From Thermostichus vulcanus str. 'Rupite' (lineage in GTDB: Bacteria > Cyanobacteriota > Cyanobacteriia > Thermostichales > Thermostichaceae), in contig NZ_JAFIRA010000020.1 of assembly GCF_022848905.1 (NCBI RefSeq), positions 1 through 58,922 of the forward strand: a stretch of 58,922 bases of DNA, read 5' to 3'. Shown in pieces: positions 1,445-6,500 of the stretch (its first letter is position 1; every line of letters starts with the position of its first letter). The position numbers and the translations under genes are program-made. A model generated the notes under the pieces. The model was not told where the DNA came from. It did no database searches and worked only from the letters and a program-made list of their open reading frames with translations.

Positions 1445-2977
1445 GTGGATGTGTTGAGGCCAGAGCCAGGGATCCCAGAGCCAGAAGAATCTGGGATCCC
1501 GTCCACACCCATAAAGAGCTGGCTTGTTCCGGGAGTGCTGACTGCTTCCTGGTTGGTCATCCACTGGGGATCCCTGACGGAATGGCTGGGGGAACTGGGA
1601 TCCCGGCTGAGTTTAATCCTGTGGCTGCTGGCGGGGTTGGGCTGGGTAATCCTGTGGGCCGGGGCAAAGCCTAAGGGGCTGAGGCTGGAGCCGGTCTGCC
1701 ACTGGGGATCCCTGGGGATGTTGCTGGCAGCGGGTGTGGTGCCCTATGTGGGGGGATCCCTGCCGGAGAGCATCGGGCAGTCGCTTCAACTCAGTTGGGG
1801 TCTCTATGGATTGCTGGGGTTGGGGTTGCCTGGATCCCTGTGGTGGCGAGGGTTACCCTTTGCTCTGGGGATATCCGTGTTGCTGCCTTTTGGCGGGGCG
1901 TTTGGTAATGGTTTGGGGTTTCCGGCCCGGCTGGTAACGGCTCAGGTGGTGGAGCAGTTGCTCAAAGCCAGGGGCGTTGCCGCTATTTCTTCCCACGACA
2001 TTATTCTGCTGGAGAACGGCATTGCCCATGTGGATCTGCCCTGTAGCGGCCTGAAGGGACTGTGGGTGGGCGGGTGCTTTTTGTTAGGGGCCACCTGGCT
2101 GGAAGGTCGGCGCATGGGCTGGCTTTGGCTAGGGGTGGCCAGTTTCACCCTAGTTGCCCTGATGATGGCCAATATCTTGCGGGTGTGGGCGTTGGTGGAG
2201 GTGGGGTATGGGCTGGCGCAGCCGCAACTGGCGGAACTGCTGCATGTGCCCTTGGGGGTGTTGGGGTTTGTGGGGGCCTGTGGGCTGAGCTGGCTGGCTT
2301 TGCAATGGGTACCCGCTGGGGAAATAGCCCCTTCTGAGAACGGGCCCCGTTCAACGGCTTCCCCAAAATCGGCCCCCTGGGGGGTATGGCTGGTTTTACC
2401 CCTGCTTTGGCTGGGATCCCTTCGGCTACCTCCATCAGTGGGGATCCCGCAGGCATTGGATCTGCACGCTTTGCAAATGGGATCCCTCACCTGGGTGACA
2501 ACCCCACTGGACTTGACAGCTGCTGAACAAGACTTCTTTCGCCCACAAGCGGGCACAACCGTTGTGAAAACCCACTTCGATACCGGCACTGTGCAGGGAT
2601 CCCTGCTTTTGGTGGGGAGCAGCAGTTGGCGACAGCACCATGCCCCCGAACTCTGTTGGGCGGCTAGTGGTTTACGGGTGGTCAAGATGATCCCGGTAGA
2701 GCTGAATCCTGCTCTTAAGGCCCGCTGGTTAACGTTAGAGCAAGGGATCCCAGGATCTGCTGTGACCAGTTCAGGCTTTTATTGGTTTCAATCGGCCCAG
2801 GGGACAACAGATAATCTCCTCAGTCGAATTGGAGCAGAACTGCAAGGGGCAATACAGAAAACGGATCCCCGTTGGGTTTTGGTCTCAGGCGTTTTGGAGG
2901 GATCCTATTCTCCAAATGAACCTGAAATTCAGTCGTTGGCCCTTCAGCTCCAAACTGCATTAGAGTCTGTCTTTTAG
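1445..2977 (+). CDS. Exosortase (XrtO-like) with EpsI-like C-terminal domain
   Basis: A 510-residue membrane protein predicted to cut PEP-CTERM proteins at the cytoplasmic membrane and pass them on for surface attachment or export. The N-terminal ~310 residues hold about eight hydrophobic segments and the exosortase catalytic set: Cys200 in DLPCSGLKGLW, Arg246 in NILRVW and His267 in ELLHVPLG. Residues ~330-510 resemble the EpsI/DUF3485 domain, with HHAPELCWAASG as its HxPExC-type signature. A fused exosortase-EpsI of this length in a cyanobacterium fits exosortase O. A PEP-CTERM protein follows two genes downstream and is the likely substrate. The start is GTG behind AGGAGG. The gene is packed with GGATCC sites (about 14). 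Confidence 0.8.
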   Translation: MDVLRPEPGIPEPEESGIPSTPIKSWLVPGVLTASWLVIHWGSLTEWLGELGSRLSLILWLLAGLGWVILWAGAKPKGLRLEPVCHWGSLGMLLAAGVVPYVGGSLPESIGQSLQLSWGLYGLLGLGLPGSLWWRGLPFALGISVLLPFGGAFGNGLGFPARLVTAQVVEQLLKARGVAAISSHDIILLENGIAHVDLPCSGLKGLWVGGCFLLGATWLEGRRMGWLWLGVASFTLVALMMANILRVWALVEVGYGLAQPQLAELLHVPLGVLGFVGACGLSWLALQWVPAGEIAPSENGPRSTASPKSAPWGVWLVLPLLWLGSLRLPPSVGIPQALDLHALQMGSLTWVTTPLDLTAAEQDFFRPQAGTTVVKTHFDTGTVQGSLLLVGSSSWRQHHAPELCWAASGLRVVKMIPVELNPALKARWLTLEQGIPGSAVTSSGFYWFQSAQGTTDNLLSRIGAELQGAIQKTDPRWVLVSGVLEGSYSPNEPEIQSLALQLQTALESVF

Positions 2978-3004
2978 TCATAACTATTTTTGTTGAGAAA
3001 ACCG

Positions 3005-3616
3005 ATGGCACGCGAACTCCAGCAAATCCAAAAATTAACCTTTGAAGAATTCTTAGACTGGTATCCCAACGATGGCAGCCGCTATGAGTTGATCGATGGT
3101 GAGCTAGTGGAAATGCGGCCCATTGGAGATCATGAAGAATTGGCGGGTTTGATTACGCGCAAACTGGATCGAGAAATTGAACGGCTGTCATTACCCTACT
3201 TCATCCCCAAAAGCTGCTGTGTCAAGCCAGAAAGCGCAACAGATGCTTATCTACCGGACGTGATCGTTTTGGATCGACAGGCCCTGCAAAAAGAACCCCT
3301 TTGGAAAACAGCCTCGACGATTATATATGGATCCTCAGCTCCTCTTGTGGTTGAGATTGCCAGTACTAATGGGCAGGATGATTACGCCCGCAAGCTGGAG
3401 GATTATGAAGCCATGGGGATCCGAGAATACTGGATCGTCGATTATCGAGCTTTGGATGGAAAACGATTCATCGGGGATCCCAAGCAGCCAACGGTTAGCA
3501 TCTATCAGTTGATAGACGATCGGTATCAAGCTCAGCAATTTCGTGCGAATGACCCAGTTCAGTCTAGGATTTTTTTCAGAGCTGGTTTTAGGCGCTCAAG
3601 AGATATTGAATTTTAG
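3005..3616 (+). CDS. Uma2 family (DUF820) putative endonuclease
   Basis: A 203-residue protein of the Uma2 family, a PD-(D/E)xK-like nuclease fold spread widely in cyanobacteria with no settled role. Visible motifs are FEEFLDWYP...YELIDGELVEM near the start, YLPDVIVLD (the PD part) in the middle, and VVEIAS...DYARKLEDYEAMGIREYWIVD, the E-x(n)-K catalytic part. An in-frame TTG at 2990 would add five residues, but the ATG at 3005 is the ordinary start for the family. It sits between the exosortase and its presumed target. Uma2 genes often turn up as unrelated passengers, so a role in the sorting system is not implied. Confidence 0.85.
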   Translation: MARELQQIQKLTFEEFLDWYPNDGSRYELIDGELVEMRPIGDHEELAGLITRKLDREIERLSLPYFIPKSCCVKPESATDAYLPDVIVLDRQALQKEPLWKTASTIIYGSSAPLVVEIASTNGQDDYARKLEDYEAMGIREYWIVDYRALDGKRFIGDPKQPTVSIYQLIDDRYQAQQFRANDPVQSRIFFRAGFRRSRDIEF

Positions 3617-3683
3617 CGTAAGTTAACCCTTTCATTTATTGAATACTTCTCCATCCTACACTTGCAACCCAGGGATCCCTATC

Positions 3684-6500
3684 ATGACTGCTGCTACTCC
3701 TGAGCCTCAAAAAATCAGTTGGATGCGACGACTGTTTAACTGGGCCTGTTACGGCATTTTCTGGAGCTGGAATGCGGGATCCCTGGCCTTGGTATATCTA
3801 GGGTTTCTTCCATTTATCGGATTTTCATTTCTCATTGCCATTGGGCAAGAAAATTTCAATCTCAATCTTTTCTTGACGATTCTTCTGCTAATGCTGGTGC
3901 CGGTGGGGTGTTCGATCTGGGGACTGATTCGCTATCTCAAAAAACCAGGGCAATTGATGCGGCTATTTTTTGGCCTAGAGGCACCGCTGATTTTGCTATG
4001 TTTAATTCGGCTGTTTGTCTTTCGACAAATGCCTCTTTCTAGCCTGTTCATGGTGGTCACCTTCTTGTTGGCGCTGCTGGCCTATGGTGTGGACTTGGCC
4101 TGGCCTACCAAAACCTGGGGCCGCTGGGGTAGTTGGTTACAACTCACTGGGCATAGTTTGCTGCTCACCACCGGACTGTATGGCGGGATCCTCTTGAGTC
4201 TGTATGTGCCTCCCATTGCCATGATCTTTGTCAAAGGGGTGATCGAATGGGTGGTCGGCTTTTTCCGGTTTGAATGGGTGTCTAGCCTGCAATACACCCC
4301 CTGGAAAGCCCTGCCTTTTTTCCTGCTCATCTACAGCAGCATGTTGCTGGTTTTGGGAGCAGGCGGATTGATCTTTATCCTGCTGCCCCTTGCCATGACT
4401 AGCTTGTATTTGCGTTCCGGCTGGGGGAAGTTAGTGCAGCTTGCCATCAGATGGGGATCCCCTCGCGTTTTTGCCGGATCGATTGCCGTTTTGGGTGTGT
4501 GGATGGGGCTATTTCTAACGCTGCAAACCCAACCTCAAGTTCATGCCTTTACATTACTGGAGAATCCACCCACCACCGATCAAGCTCGTCAGGAACTGAT
4601 CCAGCAGTCTGACCGAATTCGGGATGGTTTATTAAATGCCTATCTATCTCCCTACCGCTATCTCAGCACCCGTACTGAAGCCCAAAATCTGCGGGAGCTT
4701 TACCATGATATATTTCGCTTACCCCGACCCATCGGGGAGAAAATTCAGGCGGTTCACAACACCTTGTTTTCACCCTTTTTATATGACGGATCCCTGGAGG
4801 ATCAACCCAAAGCCGCTCAGCTTTACGAACAATTTTTCGATGAGCCGATCCAAAAAGCCGAGAGCGAAACCATTCGTCAGGCCCTAAATGCCACCCTCAA
4901 CAGGGATCAGGTGCAGGCGGGCCTTTTGGATATCGACCAAAAACGGGTTTGGCTGGCCAAACAGGAGGTGACGGTTCAATCTCAGGGGGATATCGCTCAA
5001 GTTGAGATCCACGAACGGTACGAAAACAATACCTGGGAGCAGCAGGAGGTTTTTTACGCTTTTTCTTTGCCCGAAAGTGCTGTTATTACCGGCCTCTGGC
5101 TTGGAGAAACCGAAAACTTGGCACAACGCTTCTCCCATGTGGTGGCCCCGCGTGGAGCAGCCCAACAGGTCTACACCCAGGAGGTGCGTCGCCAGGTGGA
5201 TCCGGCCCTACTGGAGCAGGTGGGCCCCCAACAATACCGTCTGCGGGCGTTCCCCGTTCCCCCCAGAACCTATGATCCTCAAGGAGCCGGTGGCTGGATC
5301 CCGGGTCAAATGCACCTGTGGATGACCTATCAAGTCATGGCTCAGCCGGGGGGATGGCCGCTGCCGCACCTATTGGAGCAGCGCAATATCTACTGGACAC
5401 GCCAAACCGAGCGTTGGCAAAACGGCGAACCAGTTAGCTCTCTGACCGAGTCATGGTTTCCCCCTTACGTCAGTGGGACGGTACAGCCCCAATCCCATCA
5501 GATCACCCTCACCAGTGACCCACCGACCACCCTTACGGCTCAGCCTTTTGCAGAGCAACGGATCCCCAAAAACCGGCATTTCGCCCTGGTTTTGGATACC
5601 TCCTACAGCATGTGGCAGCAACGGGGATCCCTGCGGGAAACTTTTTTGTGGTTGGATGCTCTTTTCTTGCCGCAAAATCAGGTGGATGTGTACGTCAGTT
5701 CTGCCGAGGGCATGAGTCCCCGCTTTTTGGGAGAGATCCGGCAATTGCAGGCCCAAACCCTGACCCTGTACGGATCCCTGACCCTTCAGGAGATTTTGCA
5801 TCAGTTTCATAGCCTGCAAAACAGCCGCTCCTACGATGCCGTTGTGCTCGTGACCGATACCGGCAGTTATGAACGTTCCCAAGGGGATCCCTTGCCCCCG
5901 TTAGCGGCCCCCTTGTGGATCCTGCATTTGGGAGATGTGCCTGCGGCCTATGATGACCCGGTACTGGAGGCAATCACCGATACCGATGGGGGCGTGGATA
6001 CCAACCTTCAAACCCTGATGACCCGACTGGAAACCCAACTCAGCCTGGGATCCACCGTCTTGGATGGGTACCGTTGGCAGGTGCAAACAGAAACCCAGAC
6101 AGAAGTCCAAACAAAGCCAGCAGAGGAAGAAGGGGATCCCTTCTTTGCCCCCTTGGCGGCCCGCTATTGGATCCGGTACATGAGCCGCCAAACCCCGGAG
6201 CGCACCCTGGCCGATTTGGATCGCATCCATACCATTGCCAAAGAACAGGATATCGTCACGCCTTTTTCCTCGATGTTGGTGCTAGTCAATGACCGGCAAC
6301 GACAAGCCCTTGCCGAGGCCGAAGCCGCCGCAGATCGCTTTGAGCGGGAGGTGGAAACCGGCACCGAGACCCTAACGCAACCGTTCTCGCCCTTTACGGT
6401 CACAGGGGTACCGGAGCCAGAAGAGTGGCTGTTGATCGGCATTGCTCTGGCCCTGGGTACAGGGATCCTCTACCGTCAACGACAACGGGCTAAGGCTTGA
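3684..6500 (+). CDS. PEP-CTERM polytopic membrane protein with VIT and vWA-like domains
   Basis: About 938 residues. The N-terminal ~300 residues hold roughly eight hydrophobic segments. A soluble part follows. A vault/inter-alpha-trypsin (VIT)-like domain has YAFSLPESAVITGLWLGE and later a DPALLEQV...FPVPPR stretch. A von Willebrand A-like domain has the metal-site start LDTSYSMW (DxSxS type). The C-terminus is a PEP-CTERM signal: VPEPEEW, a hydrophobic helix, then the basic tail RQRQRAKA. This layout matches the TIGR02921 PEP-CTERM integral membrane family as I recall it. The nearby exosortase probably processes it. A TTG at 3639 is in frame upstream, but the ATG at 3684 is preferred. Confidence 0.8.
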   Translation: MTAATPEPQKISWMRRLFNWACYGIFWSWNAGSLALVYLGFLPFIGFSFLIAIGQENFNLNLFLTILLLMLVPVGCSIWGLIRYLKKPGQLMRLFFGLEAPLILLCLIRLFVFRQMPLSSLFMVVTFLLALLAYGVDLAWPTKTWGRWGSWLQLTGHSLLLTTGLYGGILLSLYVPPIAMIFVKGVIEWVVGFFRFEWVSSLQYTPWKALPFFLLIYSSMLLVLGAGGLIFILLPLAMTSLYLRSGWGKLVQLAIRWGSPRVFAGSIAVLGVWMGLFLTLQTQPQVHAFTLLENPPTTDQARQELIQQSDRIRDGLLNAYLSPYRYLSTRTEAQNLRELYHDIFRLPRPIGEKIQAVHNTLFSPFLYDGSLEDQPKAAQLYEQFFDEPIQKAESETIRQALNATLNRDQVQAGLLDIDQKRVWLAKQEVTVQSQGDIAQVEIHERYENNTWEQQEVFYAFSLPESAVITGLWLGETENLAQRFSHVVAPRGAAQQVYTQEVRRQVDPALLEQVGPQQYRLRAFPVPPRTYDPQGAGGWIPGQMHLWMTYQVMAQPGGWPLPHLLEQRNIYWTRQTERWQNGEPVSSLTESWFPPYVSGTVQPQSHQITLTSDPPTTLTAQPFAEQRIPKNRHFALVLDTSYSMWQQRGSLRETFLWLDALFLPQNQVDVYVSSAEGMSPRFLGEIRQLQAQTLTLYGSLTLQEILHQFHSLQNSRSYDAVVLVTDTGSYERSQGDPLPPLAAPLWILHLGDVPAAYDDPVLEAITDTDGGVDTNLQTLMTRLETQLSLGSTVLDGYRWQVQTETQTEVQTKPAEEEGDPFFAPLAARYWIRYMSRQTPERTLADLDRIHTIAKEQDIVTPFSSMLVLVNDRQRQALAEAEAAADRFEREVETGTETLTQPFSPFTVTGVPEPEEWLLIGIALALGTGILYRQRQRAKA

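Follow-up and report, generated by a model that had tools for sequence, protein, structure and literature searches.

Exosortase O and an adjacent seven-span VIT/vWA membrane protein probably form a dedicated two-gene sorting unit in Thermostichus vulcanus str. 'Rupite'

The stretch of DNA analysed here (hereafter the window) comprises 58,922 nt on contig C20 of the genome of Thermostichus vulcanus str. 'Rupite' (G000), an assembly of 3.72 Mb in 120 contigs that is 99.99% complete. Its forward strand carries three consecutive genes: xrtO, encoding exosortase O (XrtO, positions 1445..2977); a gene of the Uma2 family (2990..3616; PF05685, 115 bits); and a gene encoding a protein of the TIGR02921 (PEP_integral) family (3639..6500), the putative target of the exosortase. 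Statements about the whole genome rest on profile searches combined with pattern searches. We compared the locus with a family sample of 8 genomes, a phylum sample of 292 genomes, and a sample of 60 loci from named genomes, 59 of which have room for the next gene. There is some overlap between named loci and numbered genomes, so that counts taken from them are not independent samples. The window also contains 96 copies of GGGATCCC (about 1630 per Mb) and none of HIP1 (GCGATCGC). The former is a HIP derivative described for the hot-spring Synechococcus JA-3-3Ab and JA-2-3B (PMC4390886), and its abundance suggests that the genome is related to this group.

The gene between the two was regarded as probably incidental in an earlier note on this DNA, which was made from the sequence alone, and the comparison bears this out. 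Among the mapped loci, a Uma2 gene lies between xrtO and the target gene in the window only. In a genome of the same genus (G296), the gap between the two genes is 79 nt and contains no Uma2. Since it is absent between the pair elsewhere, we consider Uma2 to be an incidental insertion that lies outside the system. The pair of G296 (L202:4467-8871) has other neighbours as well, so the location of the pair varies even between genomes of one genus.

The identification of the first gene as an exosortase was confirmed by the TIGR04489 profile (375.9 bits, cut-off 250). The gene starts with GTG, has an AGGAGG ribosome-binding-like site directly 5' of it, and encodes a protein of about 510 aa that is also above the cut-offs of two exosortase/archaeosortase profiles, PF09721 (58.2 bits vs 25.7) and TIGR04178 (36.4 vs 23). 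Three residues of the transmembrane core (Cys200, Arg246, and His267) are kept in all 44 aligned relatives. The C-terminal part (residues 335-510, approximately) is probably the EpsI-like (DUF3485) domain that the earlier note placed in the same chain. Among the 44 relatives, PF11984 (DUF3485/EpsI) matches 21 (best E-value 3e-6) and the EpsI models of NCBIfam match as many as 21 (EpsI_type_B: 21), but the window protein itself is below the Pfam threshold and has no match to EpsI/DUF3485 profiles. That the fused domain couples cleavage to a second processing step is speculation. The AF2 model of XrtO (pLDDT 81) has no significant match in the PDB (best Foldseek E-value 0.098; VIA Z 7.0 or less), and a search by sequence found no solved relative. 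Residues 336-510 of the model weakly resemble Mog1/PsbP/SciW-type folds, with Z no higher than 7 and thus under the trust level.

The target gene probably starts at ATG 3684, not at TTG 3639, because the start residue of the G296 target corresponds to this codon (MTAATPEPQ...). The protein matches TIGR02921 with 878.1 bits (cut-off 200) over positions 4-921 of the 922 of the model and is the sole copy in the genome. Its N-terminal membrane domain (3684..4541, approximately residues 16-301) was delimited using hydropathy and loop charges over 42 homologues and the AF2 model (mean pLDDT 82). The alignment-averaged hydropathy peaks at residues 56, 86, 119, 145, 182, 239, and 286, and once more near the C-terminus at 937. 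Where about eight spans had been counted ahead of the VIT domain, there are instead seven strong ones, and one more at the C-terminus. Along the homologues, basic loops, assigned to the inside, take turns with acidic or neutral ones, assigned to the outside; the topology predicted from this has the N-terminus and the basic tail inside and the soluble part outside. As the PEP motif sits at the periplasmic face in the 2006 description of PEP-CTERM (PMC1569441), this predicted orientation is the one that an exosortase substrate needs. Span seven is followed by a conserved LQQQPQVxAF (residues 297-304), a candidate signal peptidase site.

The soluble part contains the two domains that had been read from the sequence. 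The VIT-like domain (4947..5276, approximately residues 437-546) is matched by PF08487 at residues 441-544 (47.7 bits vs 26.5), and the same profile matches all 42 relatives. The vWA-like domain (5550..6053, approximately residues 638-805) goes undetected by Pfam vWA in all 42 family members and was identified by its fold: VIA-align superposes it on 7n1o (Z 12.7, rmsd 3.1, 151 residues aligned), and, taken by itself, this part resembles many vWA domains at Z about 12. Its MIDAS-like DxSxS (D653, S655, and S657) and D740 are all invariant in the alignment. The protein ends in a sorting tail (6405..6500) made of G-VPEPEEW, a hydrophobic helix (residues 927-952 in the AF2 model), and a basic, KR-rich end (RQRQRAKA) just before the stop. 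This is the layout of PEP-CTERM, with P-E-P, a hydrophobic helix, and a basic C-terminal end, as the earlier note had described.

The pairing of the two genes is very consistent across genomes. In the family sample, the two genes occur together in 3 of the 8 genomes and are both absent from the other 5. In the phylum sample, exosortase O is above the cut-off in 9 genomes and weaker in two others (G086 and G188), and the target adjoins it in all 11, with the Uma2 gene of the window as the only one that ever intervenes. In the named loci, xrtO is directly followed by the target gene, in the same orientation, in 59 of the 59 loci with room (of 60). The spacing goes mostly from an overlap to about 140 nt, with outliers at 237 nt (L099), 444 nt (L083), and 1312 nt (L116). 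The last of these gaps (L116:9480-10791, Symploca sp. SIO3C6) contains an open frame in antisense orientation that resembles, by eye, an FkbM-type methyltransferase. Frame-broken targets were found in L088, L104, L115, and L119, which are in metagenome-assembled or draft contigs. The pair is also found outside Cyanobacteria, in a deltaproteobacterial assembly (L118), in Polaromonas sp. A23 (L126), and in another bacterium (L117). When neighbours were compared as open reading frames, no third gene accompanied the pair at over 3 of roughly 36 loci outside Microcoleus. The unit thus consists of two genes. The distances between XrtO proteins and those between targets are correlated (r 0.96, 39 pairs), a value to which shared species history contributes. 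In these samples, the target gene accompanies exosortase O wherever the locus is readable, but the converse does not hold: the target occurs without exosortase O in 9 loci.

The number of enzymes and tails in the genome is also informative. Generic tail models were tried as a means of finding other PEP-CTERM proteins and were rejected as uninformative: PF07589 has no match in the genome, TIGR04155 gives the window target 10.6 bits (vs 21.6), and the tail of the window is itself not recovered above the cut-off. We replaced them by a profile built from 31 real tails and by a scan for the PEPxxW pattern. The profile finds a single tail in the genome (E-value 6.2e-12) and no other at E-values up to 1. 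In several other genomes, the same profile picks up ordinary tails, though only at E-values of 1e-4 to 1e-2, so that a divergent second tail could be missed here. The scan of the genomic DNA for PEPxxW returned 42 sites, 41 of them distinct, and a strong helix with a nearby stop was present at the window site alone. The profile search for exosortases found just one, and exosortase O is also the sole exosortase in G280, G086, and G188. The search for further tails advised in the earlier note thus gave one tail by both approaches, and its suggestion of a one-enzyme, one-substrate system is supported by the single exosortase, the single tail, and the pairing kept across genomes. The suggestion withstood both refutations that the note had set for it, namely numerous further PEP-CTERM proteins and a separation of the two genes in relatives.

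We consider it very likely that the two genes form a dedicated sorting unit, in which exosortase O cuts the VPEPEEW tail of its neighbour and the product stays anchored in the membrane. The target is predicted to be inserted in the inner membrane via its seven spans, with the VIT/vWA part in the periplasm and the tail looping back through the membrane, and the Cys-Arg-His triad of exosortase O should face the periplasm. Judging from exosortase biology and from the co-inheritance of the genes, the enzyme would read VPEPEEW at the membrane surface and cut there, removing the C-terminal helix. The product would not be released like a normal PEP-CTERM protein, because the seven-span domain would remain. 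One possibility is a VIT/vWA protein that stays anchored in the membrane and has a free C-terminus; the other, should the enzyme catalyse transfer, is such a protein with its C-terminus linked to a component of the envelope. The Trp at the third position after PEP would be part of an address that separates the target from the ordinary PEP-CTERM proteins of the same cell.

A different product would arise if a signal peptidase cut after span seven (at A303) and exosortase O cut at the tail, since this double processing would free a soluble VIT/vWA protein. There is a V-x-A-like motif at this place, and Q298, P299, Q300, and A303 are conserved. We nevertheless find this outcome unlikely, because the conservation is wider than a signal peptidase site requires and because the AF2 model packs the helices after the motif with confidence.

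The dedicated unit is also favoured by the tails themselves. PEPxxW is present in 53 of the 53 readable tails of targets linked to exosortase O in the named loci, and P925, E926, P927, and W930 are invariant in the 42 linked targets that were aligned. We disregarded the p-value of a Fisher test, since its rows are related and in part duplicated. The ordinary PEP-CTERM tails of G060, G062, G099, and G197 (PEPSILLG, PEPSAVLG, PEPTTLMG, and TPEPLTML, among others) are missing the Trp at that place, and all four genomes encode other exosortases. These data bear on the possibility that exosortase O serves several PEP-CTERM proteins, of which the neighbour is merely one, with adjacency reflecting the convenience of an operon. 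Most exosortases have many targets, and several genomes with exosortase O do encode ordinary PEP-CTERM proteins, which would agree with such a broader role. We regard it as improbable, because these genomes have other exosortases too, because their ordinary tails are devoid of PEPxxW, and because exosortase O is alone in G000, G280, G086, and G188, the first of which shows a single tail. Two exceptions show that the Trp is not strictly needed and does not suffice either: a linked target in G280 (L064) has PEPPLV, without Trp, and a target without exosortase O in G229 (L053) retains PEPEMW.

The genomes of the 9 TIGR02921 loci without exosortase O all carry one or two other exosortases. PEPxxW is missing in 8 of these 9 loci, and the tails read PEPGMVVG, PEPGLIIG, PEPGTIWG, PEPSGGW, PEGSPLYG, and, once, PEPEMW. 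So most targets without exosortase O seem to have drifted toward the ordinary tail style. This is the pattern expected if a target switches enzyme upon the loss of exosortase O, which is the direction of change that we infer. A tree built without the tails requires the linkage to change four times, and well-supported branches force at least three of these events. A second TIGR02921 copy without exosortase O is found in G229 (L054:7637-13977); it adjoins a long ORF with a weak match to the target and an APEPSFML tail at its end, in a cluster that also holds ORFs of 1250 aa and 1036 aa. One could also suppose that the tail is vestigial or a mere anchor, in a membrane complex where exosortase O no longer cuts the target, given that the target already has seven spans, so that release of the tail would bring no export, and that transpeptidation is a hypothesis for this pair, but we give this little credence because the exosortase keeps its Cys, Arg, and His in all 44 proteins, PEP and Trp are invariant in 42 targets, and most tails are altered where exosortase O is missing.

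The soluble part of the target has its best Foldseek match in the human inter-alpha-inhibitor heavy chain 1 (PDB 6fpy, E-value 3.2e-13), with target residues 432-888 aligned (VIA Z 11.7, 407 residues, rmsd 7.4). The two proteins differ in that the identity is 12% and that the human one is without a membrane domain and has other processing machinery. Heavy chain 1 is trimmed of a C-terminal pro-part, and the resulting end is attached through an ester bond to a sugar chain, a glycosaminoglycan (PMC7170535). This sugar-linked C-terminus makes joining an attractive idea for the product of the dedicated unit as well. By analogy with the heavy chains, the C-terminus of the target might be covalently joined to an envelope polysaccharide or lipid and thus become a permanent tether of the inner membrane. 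We see this as a rather doubtful extension of the proposed mechanism.

Parts of this system were already known, since both families, TIGR04489 and TIGR02921, are curated in NCBIfam and sibling systems with VIT targets exist. The window pair belongs to both families and has as its own peculiarity the Uma2 gene inserted between them. Going by the NCBIfam names, we likened it to the systems of exosortase N with a VIT target (TIGR04476/TIGR04477) and of exosortase K with MSEP-CTERM (TIGR04287/TIGR04286). Exosortase K pairs with MSEP-CTERM, and both of these systems show one-to-one adjacency. All 44 aligned XrtO proteins also match the XrtN model; the window target has weak matches to the target families of both systems, far below their cut-offs (TIGR04477, 40.9 bits vs 250; the target family of exosortase K, 19.2 vs 150). 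The Gram-negative sortase (TIGR03784) with its VIT/vWA LPXTG target (TIGR03788) is likewise a dedicated enzyme beside a VIT/vWA target, but its enzyme family and tail are unrelated to those of the window pair. VIT/vWA relatives bear GlyGly-CTERM, PEP-CTERM, or LPXTG tails (PMC3237569). The cyanoexosortase B of Nostoc punctiforme, which has experimental phenotypes (PMC12188702), is also a cyanobacterial exosortase, but it is of another subfamily and serves PEP-CTERM proteins in general.

PEP-CTERM proteins usually have a signal peptide and no further membrane spans, a rule to which the sole exception in 2006 was one three-member integral-membrane family (PMC1569441), presumably TIGR02921. The window target departs from this rule by its seven N-terminal spans. 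The pair is less unusual than the earlier note presented it, both families being curated and sibling systems known. Our literature search found no dedicated paper on XrtO, TIGR02921, XrtN, or MSEP-CTERM, with PMC3256604 and the NCBI family notes outside its coverage. Four features are new relative to the literature searched: PEPxxW as a signature, the switching of tails, the strictness of the two-gene unit, and the resemblance in fold to heavy chain 1.

An exosortase usually has a broad set of substrates, and this makes it difficult to study its recognition rules and its chemistry in isolation. A strict pair, genomes where exosortase O is the sole exosortase, and relatives whose target has another tail and apparently another enzyme together amount to natural swap experiments on the signals that an exosortase recognises. 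The product should remain in the membrane, so that its new C-terminus could be recovered and sequenced, and whether the enzyme cuts or joins can therefore be tested directly. Time and again, dedicated C-terminal processing enzymes of unrelated kinds have VIT/vWA proteins as their cargo, and the pair of exosortase O and its target adds to this pattern.
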